From an uncultured Spirochaetaceae bacterium (GTDB lineage: Bacteria > Spirochaetota > Spirochaetia > Sphaerochaetales > Sphaerochaetaceae), in assembly GCA_900315435.1 (NCBI GenBank), contig OMYY01000016.1:1-59506 (forward strand): 59,506 nucleotides of DNA, in the 5' to 3' direction. The notes below the pieces were generated by a model. The model was not told the DNA's origin. It made no database searches and saw nothing but the letters and a program-made list of their open reading frames with translations. The position numbers and the translations under genes are program-made. Shown here piece by piece: positions 132 through 7,533 of the stretch. Every line of letters begins with the position of its first letter. Position 1 is the stretch's first letter.

Positions 132-2477
132 TTATTGCTCGTCGTCGTTCTTTTTGTTGTCTTTCTCCAACCAGAAAAAGGATTTGCCCTCATCATCCGC
201 ACGGCGGGCACCAGACGGACGGAACTTGTCCATGCCATAAGGCTTCTGGCCACGGCGGTCATCGCGATCGGTATAACGGGACGGGCGGGAGAATCCGTCA
301 CGGCGGCCAAACCCGCGATCATCCCTGCGGCCATAGCCACGGTCGTCACGGTCGCCATAGCTCCTGCGGCCATAACCGCGGTCGTCACGGTCGCCATAGC
401 TCCTGCGGCCGTAGCCACGGTCGTCGCGGTCGCCAAAGTCCCTGCGGCCATAACCGCGGTCGTCACGGTCGCCATAGCTCCTGCGGCCGTAGCCACGGTC
501 GTCGCGGTCGCCATAGCTTCTGCGGCCGTAACCACGGTCGTCGCGGTCGCCAAAGTCCCTGCGGCCGTAACCACGGTCGTCGCGATCGCCAAAGTCCCTG
601 CGGCCATAACCGCGGTCGTCACGGTCGCCATAGCTTCTGCGCCCATAGCCACGGTCATCGCGGTCGCCATAGCTTCTGCGGCCGTAACCACGGTCATCGC
701 GGTCGCCAAAGTCCCTGCGGCCGTAACCACGATCGTCACGGTCGCCATAGCTTCTGCGGCCGTAACCACGGTCATCGCGGTCACCATTGCCTCTACGGCC
801 ATAGCCGCGGTCGTCGCGGTCACGTCCGCCACGACGGGCAGGGCGATCCTCGTCATCCGCATCATCTTCGTCTTTCTTGTCCGGACGGCCACCATAAGGA
901 CGTGGCTGGAACGCACGGGCGGCGATGGACATACGGTCATCCGCCTCGGGGGCGCTCTCCTCTTTGGCCTCTTCCTGGTCGGCGGCATCCTCGTCGGATG
1001 ATGCTGCTGTCTGCGGCTCTTCGGTCTCGCTCCAGTCCAAGGTCAACACATCCTCGTCAGCTTTCGCTTCTTCTGCCTTTGGCTGTTCGGTTGCAGGTTC
1101 CTCCGCCTTGGCTGCCTCAGCCGGGACCTCTTCAGCCTTTGGCTGTTCGACTACCGGCTCCTCCGCCTTGGCTGCCTCAGCCGGGATCTCTTCAGCCTTC
1201 GGCTGTTCGACTACCGGCTCCTCCACCTTGGATTCCTCAACCGGTGCCTCTTCAGACTTCGGTTGCTCGACTACCGGTTCCTCTGTAGCCTTTTTGGTGC
1301 TCTTCCTAGTGGTTTTCTTGGCCTTCGGGGCAGCCTCATCGGCTTCCGCAACGCTCTTGACCGCCTTCTTGGCGGTGCTCTTCCTGGTGGTTTTCTTGGC
1401 CGGCTTCTTCTCTTCCGCCGCCACTTCCATCACGACTTCTTCCTGATCTTTCACTTCTTCACTCATGATTTGTTCTTCCTGCAGGTTGTTTCCTGCCACA
1501 ACGCCAAAGTCCGCAATATCCTCTGGGAGCGGACCAGCTTCTTCCATCTTGGTCAACAACCAAGTTCTCGATGTGCCGGTTTTCTTGGTAAAGCCAGGGG
1601 CTGCGACCTCCCTCGAGACCTCTTCGATTGCATATCCGTGCACCTTTCTTTCATCAAGGCGGAAACTCCCCAAATTAGTGGAGAACACAACCCTTCCGCC
1701 CTGCACCAGGAGCCCATTGAGCAGCCAGAGCCACTTTGCGTGGTCCCTTTGGACATCGAAATCGCCGTCCATCTTATGGCTGTTCGAGAAGGTCGGGGGA
1801 TCGAAAACAATCAACTGATATTTCGATCCCTTCGCCAACTCCCGCTCCACAAACCTCAGGGCATCCATCTGCACGCATGGGTACAGGTCTCCCTCAAAGC
1901 CATTTGCCTTGAGATTTTCCTTTGCCCACTGGGTGTATGGCCCTGACAAATCCACCGAAACCACACTCGCCGCCCCGCCAGCCGCAGCATAGACGGAAAA
2001 AGCTCCCGTGTAGCTGAACAGGTTCAGGACGGAAAGCCCTTGACAATTCTCGCGCACCCACTCCCGGGTGACCGCGTGGTCAAGGAACAATCCGGTATCG
2101 ATATGCCGCGTCAAATCTACGGTGAAGGTCAATCCATTCTCCTTCACCAGGGTTTTCACCGACACCTCGCTGAGCGTCTCGTGCTGCTCCCTGCCAATCC
2201 GCTTCTCGCGGTGGTAGAAAACCACATGGTCGCTCTGGACGTACAGCATTCGGCTGACGATGTCGCAGCAAGTTTCCCTCATCGCCTCTTCCATACCGTC
2301 CACGCTGTAATCGGTGATACGCGCATACTTGCCATAGAGATCCACGGTCACGGGAAATTGTTCGAGATTCCGGTCATAGACACGCATGCAATCCGTACCG
2401 TATTGCAGCATCATACGGCGTTGCTTGAGCGCATTGGCCTTCAGGATCTTTCCAAAATCTTTCTCGTAAAATTCCAT
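132..2477 (-). CDS. RlmK-like 23S rRNA methyltransferase fused to a repetitive RNA-binding-type tail
   Basis: Residues 1 to about 310 are a class I SAM-dependent methyltransferase closely resembling the C-terminal (RlmK) half of E. coli RlmKL, which makes m7G2069 in 23S rRNA: NLFSYTGAFSV (SAM site), VVSVDLS, FDPPTFSNS and FDVQRDH are visible. There is no RlmL/THUMP half. The frame stays open into about 440 more residues: a Lys-rich AKKTTRKST segment, 20-residue acidic EPVVEQPKAEE repeats, then 13 RDDRGYGRR repeats and a basic end. Start at 2477 (MEFYEKDFGK) is where homology begins; the open frame continues upstream without homology. An in-frame ATG at 1466 has its own Shine-Dalgarno sequence, so the tail may also be made alone. 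Total 781 residues. Methyltransferase assignment is firm; the exact target base is inferred. Confidence 0.85.
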   Translation of the reverse strand: MEFYEKDFGKILKANALKQRRMMLQYGTDCMRVYDRNLEQFPVTVDLYGKYARITDYSVDGMEEAMRETCCDIVSRMLYVQSDHVVFYHREKRIGREQHETLSEVSVKTLVKENGLTFTVDLTRHIDTGLFLDHAVTREWVRENCQGLSVLNLFSYTGAFSVYAAAGGAASVVSVDLSGPYTQWAKENLKANGFEGDLYPCVQMDALRFVERELAKGSKYQLIVFDPPTFSNSHKMDGDFDVQRDHAKWLWLLNGLLVQGGRVVFSTNLGSFRLDERKVHGYAIEEVSREVAAPGFTKKTGTSRTWLLTKMEEAGPLPEDIADFGVVAGNNLQEEQIMSEEVKDQEEVVMEVAAEEKKPAKKTTRKSTAKKAVKSVAEADEAAPKAKKTTRKSTKKATEEPVVEQPKSEEAPVEESKVEEPVVEQPKAEEIPAEAAKAEEPVVEQPKAEEVPAEAAKAEEPATEQPKAEEAKADEDVLTLDWSETEEPQTAASSDEDAADQEEAKEESAPEADDRMSIAARAFQPRPYGGRPDKKDEDDADDEDRPARRGGRDRDDRGYGRRGNGDRDDRGYGRRSYGDRDDRGYGRRDFGDRDDRGYGRRSYGDRDDRGYGRRSYGDRDDRGYGRRDFGDRDDRGYGRRDFGDRDDRGYGRRSYGDRDDRGYGRRSYGDRDDRGYGRRDFGDRDDRGYGRRSYGDRDDRGYGRRSYGDRDDRGYGRRDDRGFGRRDGFSRPSRYTDRDDRRGQKPYGMDKFRPSGARRADDEGKSFFWLEKDNKKNDDEQ
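324..821 (-). repeat. 13 tandem 39-bp coding repeats (RGYGRR)
   Basis: Twelve full 39-bp units plus one 30-bp partial unit encode DRDDRGYGRRxxG. The last three residues are GNG in the first unit and then SYG or DFG in the order S,D,S,S,D,D,S,S,D,S,S. The units are contiguous and in frame, so the array can expand or contract without breaking the reading frame. The peptide is an Arg/Gly/Tyr/Asp-rich, probably disordered, RNA-binding type sequence. Confidence 0.95.
1059..1283 (-). repeat. Tandem 60-bp coding repeats (EEPVVEQPKAEE)
   Basis: Three full 20-residue units and a shortened fourth, each beginning EEPVVEQPK or EEPATEQPK, lie between the Lys-rich segment and the RGYGRR array of the same protein. 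They form an acidic, Pro/Ala-rich spacer. Confidence 0.9.
1464..1480 (-). promoter_or_regulatory. Internal ribosome binding site and ATG inside the methyltransferase gene
   Basis: On the minus strand AGGAAG (1475-1480) sits 8 bases before an in-frame ATG at 1466 that would start MSEEVKDQEEVV. Initiation here would give a separate 444-residue protein made only of the Lys-rich, acidic and RGYGRR segments. Whether it is used cannot be seen from sequence. Confidence 0.4.
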
Positions 2478-2558: not shown

Positions 2559-3041
2559 ATGGAAGCAGAAACCCTGGCTTTTCTGAAAGACATCGAAACC
2601 CGGCGAGGGGCGCCGATCGCATGGCGCACGTTCTGCACCTGGTATGGAACCAGCAGGCACGAAGGGCTTGAACGAGTATGGGGCGTATTCCTCTACCGGG
2701 TCGGGGATACCTTCTATCTCGAGGATTTCGAACACCAAAACACGTTCCTCGGCTTCCCCGTCAGGAAAAGGAAGACCGACAAACCCTACGAGCGGTACGA
2801 GGAGTCCTTCCACCGGAACGAAGTATGTGGCACCATGCAAATATCCAAAAGAACGGCGGAGAAAATCGTCCAAGGACAGCTTGCCCCCCGATATGTGAAA
2901 CCGATCCACGGCCTTGCGACCCTGTTCGCCGAACATATCGAGATGGTCACATTAACCGATGGTTCGGTGCTTTTATTCTCGCTGATGGACCGGAAGAAAT
3001 TTCTGGCCGAGTTGGAAAAACAACAGCATAATCATTCGTAA
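2559..3041 (+). CDS. Protein of unknown function, 160 residues
   Basis: I do not recognise the family. The protein is soluble, with no signal peptide or membrane segment, and has an aromatic-rich centre (VWGVFLYRVGDTFYLEDFEHQ) followed by a charged C-terminal half ending in a Lys/Glu/Gln-rich helix. It diverges from the methyltransferase gene with 81 bases between the two starts, and D-lactate dehydrogenase follows 41 bases after its stop. GGGGGA and GAGG lie 4 to 15 bases before the ATG, neither at ideal spacing. Even composition, open length and position between two real genes support coding; no function can be assigned. Confidence 0.75.
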   Translation: MEAETLAFLKDIETRRGAPIAWRTFCTWYGTSRHEGLERVWGVFLYRVGDTFYLEDFEHQNTFLGFPVRKRKTDKPYERYEESFHRNEVCGTMQISKRTAEKIVQGQLAPRYVKPIHGLATLFAEHIEMVTLTDGSVLLFSLMDRKKFLAELEKQQHNHS

Positions 3042-4832: not shown

Positions 4833-7487
4833 TTATTTCACCGGATAGTTCTCAGACAGGTATTCCATGAACACGTCGCTGAGCATCTTTCCTCTGCTGA
4901 CCACATTGCCAAACATGGTGTAACCATCGCCACCCGCAGCCATGAAATCGTTGGTCGCGACTTTGTACGTTGCGTCTTTGTCAATCAGCTGGCCGTTGAG
5001 CAGGACCCTCTTGATCCTGTTGCCCGGCTTGGCGTACTTGCTGTAGACGACCTGCAGGTCGGTCTGCGCATAGCTACCGGCAGTCTCGGGAAGCTTCGAA
5101 TAGCCGTGCTCGAGTGCGGCGTAGACATCGCTGCCCTTGATTTCGCAGACGTAGACAACGTTGGTGAACGGCAGGACATTCATGACATCGCCTCTGGTGA
5201 CCTTGCCGGATTTCAGGGAAGCGCGGATGCCGCCACCATTGGTGATCGTGAAGTCGGCACCACTGTCCTTGGTAATCGCATCGACAATCATCTTGGAGAG
5301 ATTGGTCTTGCGGGTACGGACATGGGCGCGCTCGCCGTCGAGATCCTCGGGAATCATCGCGATAACCTTGTTCAGCTGGACGTTCAGGTCCTTGTTGATC
5401 GACTCGATCGTTGCGGTGATCTGCGGGTCGTCAGGCACGCTGGTGACACCGAACTGCTTGGCAAGGTCGCTCTTCTCCGGCTCGAGGACATCGCTGGCCT
5501 GGATCAGCATGGCAGTCTTGCTGACAGCCTTGCCGTCCTTTACCAGGATATCGACGACACCAACGTTCTTCAGGTACTCGCCGGTGGAGACAATCAGGGT
5601 ATCGCCAACCTGGTCGCCGCTCTTCAGGACCGTGTGGCTGTGACCATCGACGAACAAGTCGATACCCTTGACCTTTTCTGCAATCTGGTCGCTGGTGATT
5701 CCGCTGGGACCAGTCGGATCAAGGCCGATATGGCCGTCAACGATGATGAAGTCGGCATACTTCTTGACCAGGTCAACCATCTTCTGGACAGTACCATAGA
5801 AGTCATCCTGGGAGAAGTCGACGCCCTCGGTGTTCTTCGGATTGCTGGTGACCAGCGTGTCCGGAGTAGACAGGCCGATGACTCCAACCTTGAAACCGTT
5901 GAAATCATACAGTTGGTAGGGCTGGAACAGCAGCTTGCCATTCTTCTTGACATTGGCACTCAGGACGCGCAGCGTACCACCGTTGGTCGCAGCGATATTG
6001 GCCATCTCGACCAAGTGGTCGGTGCCATAGTTGAAGTCATGGTTGCCCGGAGCGATGGCATCATAGCCCAGCTCCTCCAGCAGAGCATCAACCGTCTCAC
6101 CCTGGAACAGGTTGGCGAAGTTGGTGCCATGGGTGGTGTCGCCAGCATCCAAGACCAGCATGTTGTCGGTGATGGAGCGGCCGGCGTTCAGCAAAGTACC
6201 AAGCTTGGCATACCCCATGCCGCCATCCTGCGGCACCACACGAGCGTGGACATCGTTGGTGTGCACGACCATCAGGTCGAAGGTCTTGTCGCCCTTGGTG
6301 TTCTTCTCGATCAGCTGGACACCATACGGATAGGGCAGCAAGCCGGCGACCACCTGGTCATCAGGCACCGCGGCCTTCGGGTCATAACCGGCACCGGCGA
6401 TGATGGAAGCATACTGCTGCACCAACGCGCTGTCGGCAGGGTCGGTGATGGCATCGGCGGGAACGCTCATCGGATAGGTGGCGACCACCTTGCCATCCTT
6501 GACGTGCAGCTGCACGACACCAATGCTCATGAGGTCGGCATCGGCGTGGACAATCTCGGTATCCCCGACAATCTTGGCGGAAACGGTATCCCCGGAGTCG
6601 ACGATCAGGTCGATACCCTTCAGGTTTTCGGCCAGGAACTGGCTGGAAAGGTCCCCGGTATCCGGAGCGTCGGTCAGGACGATGATGTAATCGACCAGCT
6701 TGTCGGCGATATCCAGGGCCGTCTGGGCGTTGGCGACAATCACATCACTGGTGAATGATACTCCGTCCACATCCTTCGGCATGGTCAGGCCGACAACCGC
6801 GACCTTGAAGCCGTTGAAATCATATACCTGATAGGGGGTTTCCAACAGATAGCCATTGGCGTCCAGAGCGTTGGCGCTCAGGGCGGCAGCCTTTTCGGTG
6901 CCTTCGATACCCGTAGCAAGCTGAATCGTCTGAGGAGTGTACGCATCGTAGCCGGCAGCATCCAGCGCCTTTGCGACCTGCAGGGCATTGGCTTCCGTCA
7001 CGCCCATGTTGCCAGCATTCAGCACCAGGTAATTGTCGGTAATCTGCTTGCCGATATTCGCGAGGGTCGCGAACTGGCCCAGGGACAGGCCACCGGCCTC
7101 ACCTTGGAAATTGCCGTTGATATCGTTGGTATGCACGACGAAGAGGTCGAACTCCTTGTCGCCCTGGGTATTGCGGACGATGGTGTTCACGCCATATGGA
7201 TAGTCACTCGTCGGCTTCGCAGGCTCCTGAGCCACAGGGGCGGGAGCGGCTTTCGGGGTTTCCACAGGTGCCGGGACTTCGGCCTTCACAGGAGCCGGAG
7301 CCTCTTCCTTCACCGGGGCTGGCGCAGGTGCGGGAACCTCAGCTGGCTTTTCTGGAGCAGGGGCTACCGCCGGTGCCGCCGGAATGGGCTCAGCTGCCTT
7401 TTTTGCTGTCGTCTGGCATCCCACCAGCGACACGATCAGCAGTGCGGCAAGAGCCGCTCTCGCGATCGATTTCGAAAGACGTTTCAC
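4833..7487 (-). CDS. Lipoprotein with two tandem 5'-nucleotidase-type metallophosphoesterase domains, the first degenerate
   Basis: 884-residue surface or periplasmic protein of the UshA/5'-nucleotidase family, which dephosphorylates nucleotides. A lipoprotein signal ends in LVGC (Cys24), followed by a Pro/Ala/Glu/Lys-rich linker. Two homologous modules follow, each introduced by YPYGV and HTND. The second (about residue 390 on) has intact motifs (HTNDVHA, LDAGDT, GNHDFNYG, GHSH) and the nucleotidase C-terminal domain (ITNGGGIRASL, NDFMAAGGDGY). In the first the matching motifs read HTNDING, LNAGN, PQTIQ and DSGD, so metal ligands are lost. GTG at 7487 is chosen because AGGAGG lies 6 bases upstream and gives a compact signal peptide; ATGs at 7514 and 7502 are possible. 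It has its own promoter and terminator. Confidence 0.9.
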   Translation of the reverse strand: MKRLSKSIARAALAALLIVSLVGCQTTAKKAAEPIPAAPAVAPAPEKPAEVPAPAPAPVKEEAPAPVKAEVPAPVETPKAAPAPVAQEPAKPTSDYPYGVNTIVRNTQGDKEFDLFVVHTNDINGNFQGEAGGLSLGQFATLANIGKQITDNYLVLNAGNMGVTEANALQVAKALDAAGYDAYTPQTIQLATGIEGTEKAAALSANALDANGYLLETPYQVYDFNGFKVAVVGLTMPKDVDGVSFTSDVIVANAQTALDIADKLVDYIIVLTDAPDTGDLSSQFLAENLKGIDLIVDSGDTVSAKIVGDTEIVHADADLMSIGVVQLHVKDGKVVATYPMSVPADAITDPADSALVQQYASIIAGAGYDPKAAVPDDQVVAGLLPYPYGVQLIEKNTKGDKTFDLMVVHTNDVHARVVPQDGGMGYAKLGTLLNAGRSITDNMLVLDAGDTTHGTNFANLFQGETVDALLEELGYDAIAPGNHDFNYGTDHLVEMANIAATNGGTLRVLSANVKKNGKLLFQPYQLYDFNGFKVGVIGLSTPDTLVTSNPKNTEGVDFSQDDFYGTVQKMVDLVKKYADFIIVDGHIGLDPTGPSGITSDQIAEKVKGIDLFVDGHSHTVLKSGDQVGDTLIVSTGEYLKNVGVVDILVKDGKAVSKTAMLIQASDVLEPEKSDLAKQFGVTSVPDDPQITATIESINKDLNVQLNKVIAMIPEDLDGERAHVRTRKTNLSKMIVDAITKDSGADFTITNGGGIRASLKSGKVTRGDVMNVLPFTNVVYVCEIKGSDVYAALEHGYSKLPETAGSYAQTDLQVVYSKYAKPGNRIKRVLLNGQLIDKDATYKVATNDFMAAGGDGYTMFGNVVSRGKMLSDVFMEYLSENYPVK

Positions 7488-7533
7488 GATAATCCTCCTC
7501 ATGATTGTCCTCATTAAACAGTATTCATCCCAA

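Follow-up and report, generated by a model that had tools for sequence, protein, structure and literature searches.

A conserved fusion of an RlmK-type methyltransferase to a disordered repeat tail in Sphaerochaetaceae, with a predicted internal translation start in many members

Introduction

The RlmK half of E. coli RlmKL (structures 3v8v and 3v97) is a 23S rRNA m7G2069 methyltransferase. The K and L domains of this protein are able to act separately, separate RlmK and RlmL proteins occur in other bacteria, and E. coli RlmKL aids 50S assembly beyond methylation (PMC11194073). In eukaryotes, the rRNA methyltransferase fibrillarin is localised by its Arg-rich arm, the GAR domain, which was gained in one lineage and is missing from the archaeal relatives (PMC7194090). 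Two products of one gene are described for SpaO, where a C-terminal part (SpaO-short) is made from an in-frame internal GTG alongside the full-length protein (PMC13059759). Long disordered regions are also found in other RNA-acting bacterial proteins, such as RNase E with its RNase E bodies (PMC10412687) and IF2 with its N-terminal region (PMC11838494).

Here, a window of 59,506 nucleotides (contig OMYY01000016.1, uncultured Spirochaetaceae bacterium) was analysed, which carries a gene for an RlmK-like methyltransferase with a disordered tail. The nearest named records place the organism in the Sphaerochaetaceae. The enzyme domain is alike the RlmK half of E. coli RlmKL over its full length and shares its motifs, whereas the tail is absent from RlmKL and the protein coexists with an intact RlmKL. 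As in fibrillarin, an Arg-rich disordered arm gained in one lineage is joined to an enzyme of rRNA-methyltransferase type; the two methyltransferase families are, however, unrelated (no fibrillarin family was among the Pfam matches of the window protein), the fibrillarin arm is N-terminal and Gly/Arg-rich whereas the tail described here is C-terminal and Arg/Asp/Tyr-rich, and bacteria have no nucleolus. SpaO offers the one-gene, two-product layout that is proposed here, where the second product is predicted from the sequence, but differs in protein family and function. RNase E and IF2 have no sequence relation to the present tail, whose condensation is putative. A literature search returned no paper on the protein described here.

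The reading favoured here, to which a probability of roughly 0.6 is given, is that of an RlmK-type enzyme with a once-gained, disordered polyampholyte tail ending in a docking-like tip, in which the tail would localise the enzyme and many members would possess an internal translation start.

Results and discussion

Organisation of the gene and its enzyme domain

The gene is located on the minus strand (132..2477) and runs intact, with no internal stop, from the ATG at 2477 to the stop codon at 134-132, encoding 781 aa. Residues 1-310 (1548..2477, minus strand) make up a class I methyltransferase of RlmK type, which was matched by Pfam PF10672 (1.8e-31) and by NCBIfam PRK11783.1. The latter match was confined to the RlmK half (profile positions 396-702 of 704); as one half of the protein is missing, its 269 bits do not reach the cut-off of 466 set for the whole protein. 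The best solved structures were 3v8v and 3v97 at residues 392-701 (hmmsearch, 1.3e-80); sequence and fold match across the RlmK domain, and the catalytic motifs DPPTFSNS and FDVQRDH are retained.

The same genome also encodes an intact RlmKL, so that the fusion gene is an additional paralogue and not an RlmKL substitute; replacement of a broken RlmKL was ruled out on this ground. The stand-alone enzyme and the RlmK half of spirochaete RlmKL formed separate clades (branch 100/99) and are not orthologous. We annotate the gene as a predicted RNA methyltransferase of RlmK type and as a paralogue of the RlmK half of RlmKL. Its activity on 23S rRNA is putative, since an intact RlmKL coexists and the stand-alone enzyme forms a clade of its own.

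Composition and constraint of the tail

The remaining 471 aa of the window protein are predicted to be disordered. AlphaFold pLDDT was mostly 80-98 in the enzyme and mostly below 50 in residues 328-777, which is in line with disorder over nearly all of this stretch. Reading from the enzyme towards the C-terminus (all on the minus strand), the tail comprises the Lys-rich segments KKPAKKTTRKSTAKKAVKS (1353-1409) and KAKKTTRKSTKKA (1287-1325), which are genus-specific and were also found in G001 and G002; 60-bp acidic tandem repeats of the EEPVVEQPKAEE type (1069..1283, 3.6 copies by TRF); a short conserved motif of DD.L.LDW type, DEDVLTLDWSETEEP (1014..1058), whose DDxLxLDW form recurs in many, not all, tails of the family; 13 in-register copies of a 39-bp repeat, DRDDRGYGRR(SYG/DFG) (315..821; TRF: 324-821, 12.8 copies); and the conserved C-terminal tip QKPYGMDKFRPSGARRADDEGKSFFWLEKDNKKNDDEQ (135..248). 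The first-pass annotation had described an RlmK-type domain continuing in frame into a Lys-rich segment and into 60-bp acidic and 13 nearly identical 39-bp RGYGRR repeats, and both the single frame and the two arrays were located as claimed. Its suggestion that in-frame repeats permit length variation is likewise borne out, with 13 units in the window and about 7 in G002 (88% identical).

Among 12 repeat copies compared, the DRDDRGYGRR core was invariant as protein while its codons varied, and differences were almost all synonymous (pS 0.43, pN 0.055, pN/pS 0.13). The repeats are under purifying selection at the protein level. Across Sphaerochaetaceae, repeat sequences are species-specific, and bulk composition is constant: at tail lengths of 113-584, the fraction of charged residues (FCR) was 0.53+-0.05 and the net charge 0.02+-0.05, with 9% aromatic residues and 21% Arg. 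Common to the family is the tip PYG[FYM]DxFxxxRxR, often with FFWxDxD (in fuller form KPYGfDxFxxxRxR…FFWxDxD). When the tip was searched in other proteins and outside the family, no convincing match was obtained (one weak and partial hit, G012:C8, E 0.001); convincing matches were to the same gene in Sphaerochaetaceae only.

These data bear on whether the tail is functionless low-complexity ballast expanded by replication slippage. Variation of repeat number and sequence among species would suit this view, as would the frame-shifted array of G082 (see below), but it is rendered very improbable by the low pN/pS among copies, the constant charge and aromatic content, and the conservation of the tip and the LxLDW motif.

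Distribution and origin of the fusion

At a threshold of E <= 1e-70, the methyltransferase was present in 123 of 139 Sphaerochaetaceae genomes. None of these 123 showed a stop within the matched region, and an open frame of at least 380 aa is present in nearly all of them. The few short frames that were checked are cut off either by the contig end or by one frameshift. A clean stop between enzyme and tail, by which the first-pass fusion would have fallen into two ordinary genes, was looked for in the 123 family genomes with the enzyme and was not found; the same fusion was recovered family-wide. In L079, from a fragmentary MAG, a single frameshift near the enzyme end leaves tail and tip whole but moves them into the following frame. 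In L151 (G082) the repeat array contains several frame changes, and a different frame carries the intact tip. Sequencing errors could account for either case, or, in G082, genuine decay.

Orthologues in other spirochaete families and homologues in Bacteroidota stop at the enzyme end and have no tail. In the tree, from which G005 was left out, all tailed enzymes formed one clade (100/100) that includes one tail-less member, G007; this topology needs one gain of the tail, in the Sphaerochaetaceae ancestor, and one loss, in G007. The copy of G005 (L069) is tail-less and fast-evolved and has lost both the DPPxFS and the SAM motif. The fusion is confirmed as real, ancient and conserved.

A conserved predicted internal start site in relatives

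In-frame internal starts are missed by annotation pipelines. At the enzyme/tail boundary, the signature (TA)AGGAG-N7-(A/T)TG was present in 22 of 57 lineages. The site covers codons 304-308, read as AGG AGT TGG NNN (A/T)TG, and its codon choice was compared with codon-usage expectation over related lineages, so that the following counts are not independent events: R304 is AGG in 24/26 (expected 3.7), S305 is AGT in 25/26 (expected 3.5, or 11.0 if only AGT and AGC are allowed), and 23/26 have TTG or ATG as codon 308, Leu at this position being TTG in 13/16 (expected 3.9) and the other 10 lineages having ATG. Further downstream, Asp at 309-315 is encoded by GAT in 35/36 cases (expected 16.9), and within one clade L303 is CTA in 8/9 (expected 0.8), which extends the element to TAAGGAG. 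Of 262 columns, S305 was the most codon-conserved (z 34; next 14). Both the Shine-Dalgarno (SD) element and the in-frame start of the relatives thus exceed what codon usage predicts. AGGAGT was used at only 17 of 361 Arg-Ser pairs in neighbouring ORFs, and all six further genomes from outside the first set (g7, g17 and g19) carry the site together with (A/T)TG. Wherever both could be scored, the internal SD scored above that of the gene's own start (20/20 lineages). RNA structure at the internal site was only slightly below average.

An AGGAG followed after 7 nt by an (A/T)TG that shares the reading frame of the tail is, as a motif, a translation-start pattern, and a second, tail-only product is strongly indicated in many relatives. 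A frameshift element at AGGAGT was considered as well and rejected: the codon alignment contains no shared slippery run, and the conserved tail lies in frame 0.

The junction could also have been kept for another reason in a gene with a single product. The enzyme would then always carry the tail at its C-terminus, and AGGAGT might serve, for example, ribosome pausing during enzyme folding. One continuous frame in nearly all members agrees with this, an SD-like element just past the domain suits a pause, and a synonymous-shuffle test over all lineages gave no significant excess of strong SDs ahead of in-frame ATGs around the junction (Fisher p 0.52). Pausing leaves unexplained, however, why codon 308 is so regularly TTG or ATG at start spacing and why the codons after it are rich in GAT, and we regard a single product as rather unlikely. 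Alternatively, the tail may formerly have been a separate downstream gene whose ribosome-binding site overlapped the enzyme gene end and which was fused by stop loss, the site now being a non-functional relic. Its position, exactly at the old enzyme end as in untailed relatives, fits such an origin, but a relic would decay, whereas AGG-AGT persists in three deep clades while other synonymous sites are far less conserved; moreover, a search outside Sphaerochaetaceae yielded no tail encoded as a gene of its own. A relic is judged improbable, and an internal start in active use is the reading retained below.

Lineages without the site and the ATG at 1466

AGGAGT is missing from g3, g18, g11, g16 and the window's genus. 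In the window, residues 304-308 (RTWLL; 1554..1568, minus strand) are encoded by AGA ACT TGG TTG TTG, by which the SD part of the site is, on codon alignment, lost in this genus. The candidate internal start of the genus is located at 1464..1480 (minus strand) and consists of AGGAAG (1480-1475), a spacer of 8 nt and ATG (1466-1464), opening the frame MSEEVKDQ.

This ATG and its AGGAAG had been pointed out in the first-pass annotation and were found as described; the accompanying proposal of a tail-only product fared unevenly. It gains from the extreme synonymous conservation at residues 304-308 in relatives. For the window itself, synonymous reshuffling of the gene's codons gave an equal or better SD than AGGAAG in about 98% of trials (p=0.985), and the motif is no more than expected by chance, because Gln and Glu codons explain it. 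The ATG at 1466 is kept in G002, and in G001 (61%-identical), whose linker can otherwise scarcely be aligned, CAGGA-N10-ATG is still present at the same spacing (CAGGA-N10-ATGAGTGAAGAA). An internal start at ATG 1466 is plausible.

Most site-less lineages have an in-frame ATG or Val codon within about 45 codons, often with an AGGA-type SD, Val being GTG in all examples seen. Met density is 2.4% in the first 42 tail residues vs 0.29% in the remaining tail, an eightfold difference. Compensation between the 308 site and a later ATG or GTG is not claimed: the association gave Fisher 7e-7 without phylogeny, but comes down to only 2-4 independent contrasts on the tree.

Proposed function of the tail and of the internal start

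In the favoured reading, the C-terminus of the enzyme was extended once, in the Sphaerochaetaceae ancestor, by an Arg/Asp/Tyr-rich repeat tail. By analogy with the Arg-rich arm of fibrillarin, the tail would hold or concentrate the enzyme on RNA or pre-ribosomes, and the tip would bind a partner; the phase-separating or RNA-binding character suggested for the tail in the first-pass annotation is putative. In many members ribosomes would also initiate internally, where enzyme and tail meet, and release a free tail, for which ATG 1466 would be the corresponding start in the window's genus. Since the internal SD is the stronger one, the free tail would probably be as abundant as the full-length product or more so, and it may work in trans as a scaffold or RNA chaperone.

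A further-reaching version, held tentatively and somewhat against the odds, makes the free tail a second and in many species more abundant product in its own right, namely a family-specific RNA scaffold or chaperone whose tip recruits a partner and whose repeat number tunes its action. Were the favoured reading true, an arrangement like that of fibrillarin would have evolved independently in bacteria, with an internal start that would govern how much free tail is made relative to tethered enzyme. For work on disordered tails in bacterial RNA modification or ribosome assembly, both AGGAGT and the tip offer handles.

Genomic neighbourhood

Upstream, a divergently oriented gene (2559-3041, plus strand; about 160 aa) adjoins the methyltransferase gene in 44 of the genomes examined, outgroups included, and the downstream glutaminyl-tRNA synthetase (GlnRS) gene recurs across the family and outgroups. 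At L054, L058, L084, L096 and other loci of g11 and g16, TAATAT-like hexamers lie no more than about 15 nt from the methyltransferase ATG and no SD is present, a layout as in leaderless mRNAs. Further along the window, 4833-7514 (minus strand) encodes a large putative lipoprotein (893 aa). Its N-terminal segment is rich in Pro, Ala and Glu, and two similar 5'-nucleotidase-like halves were recognised by reading the protein sequence.
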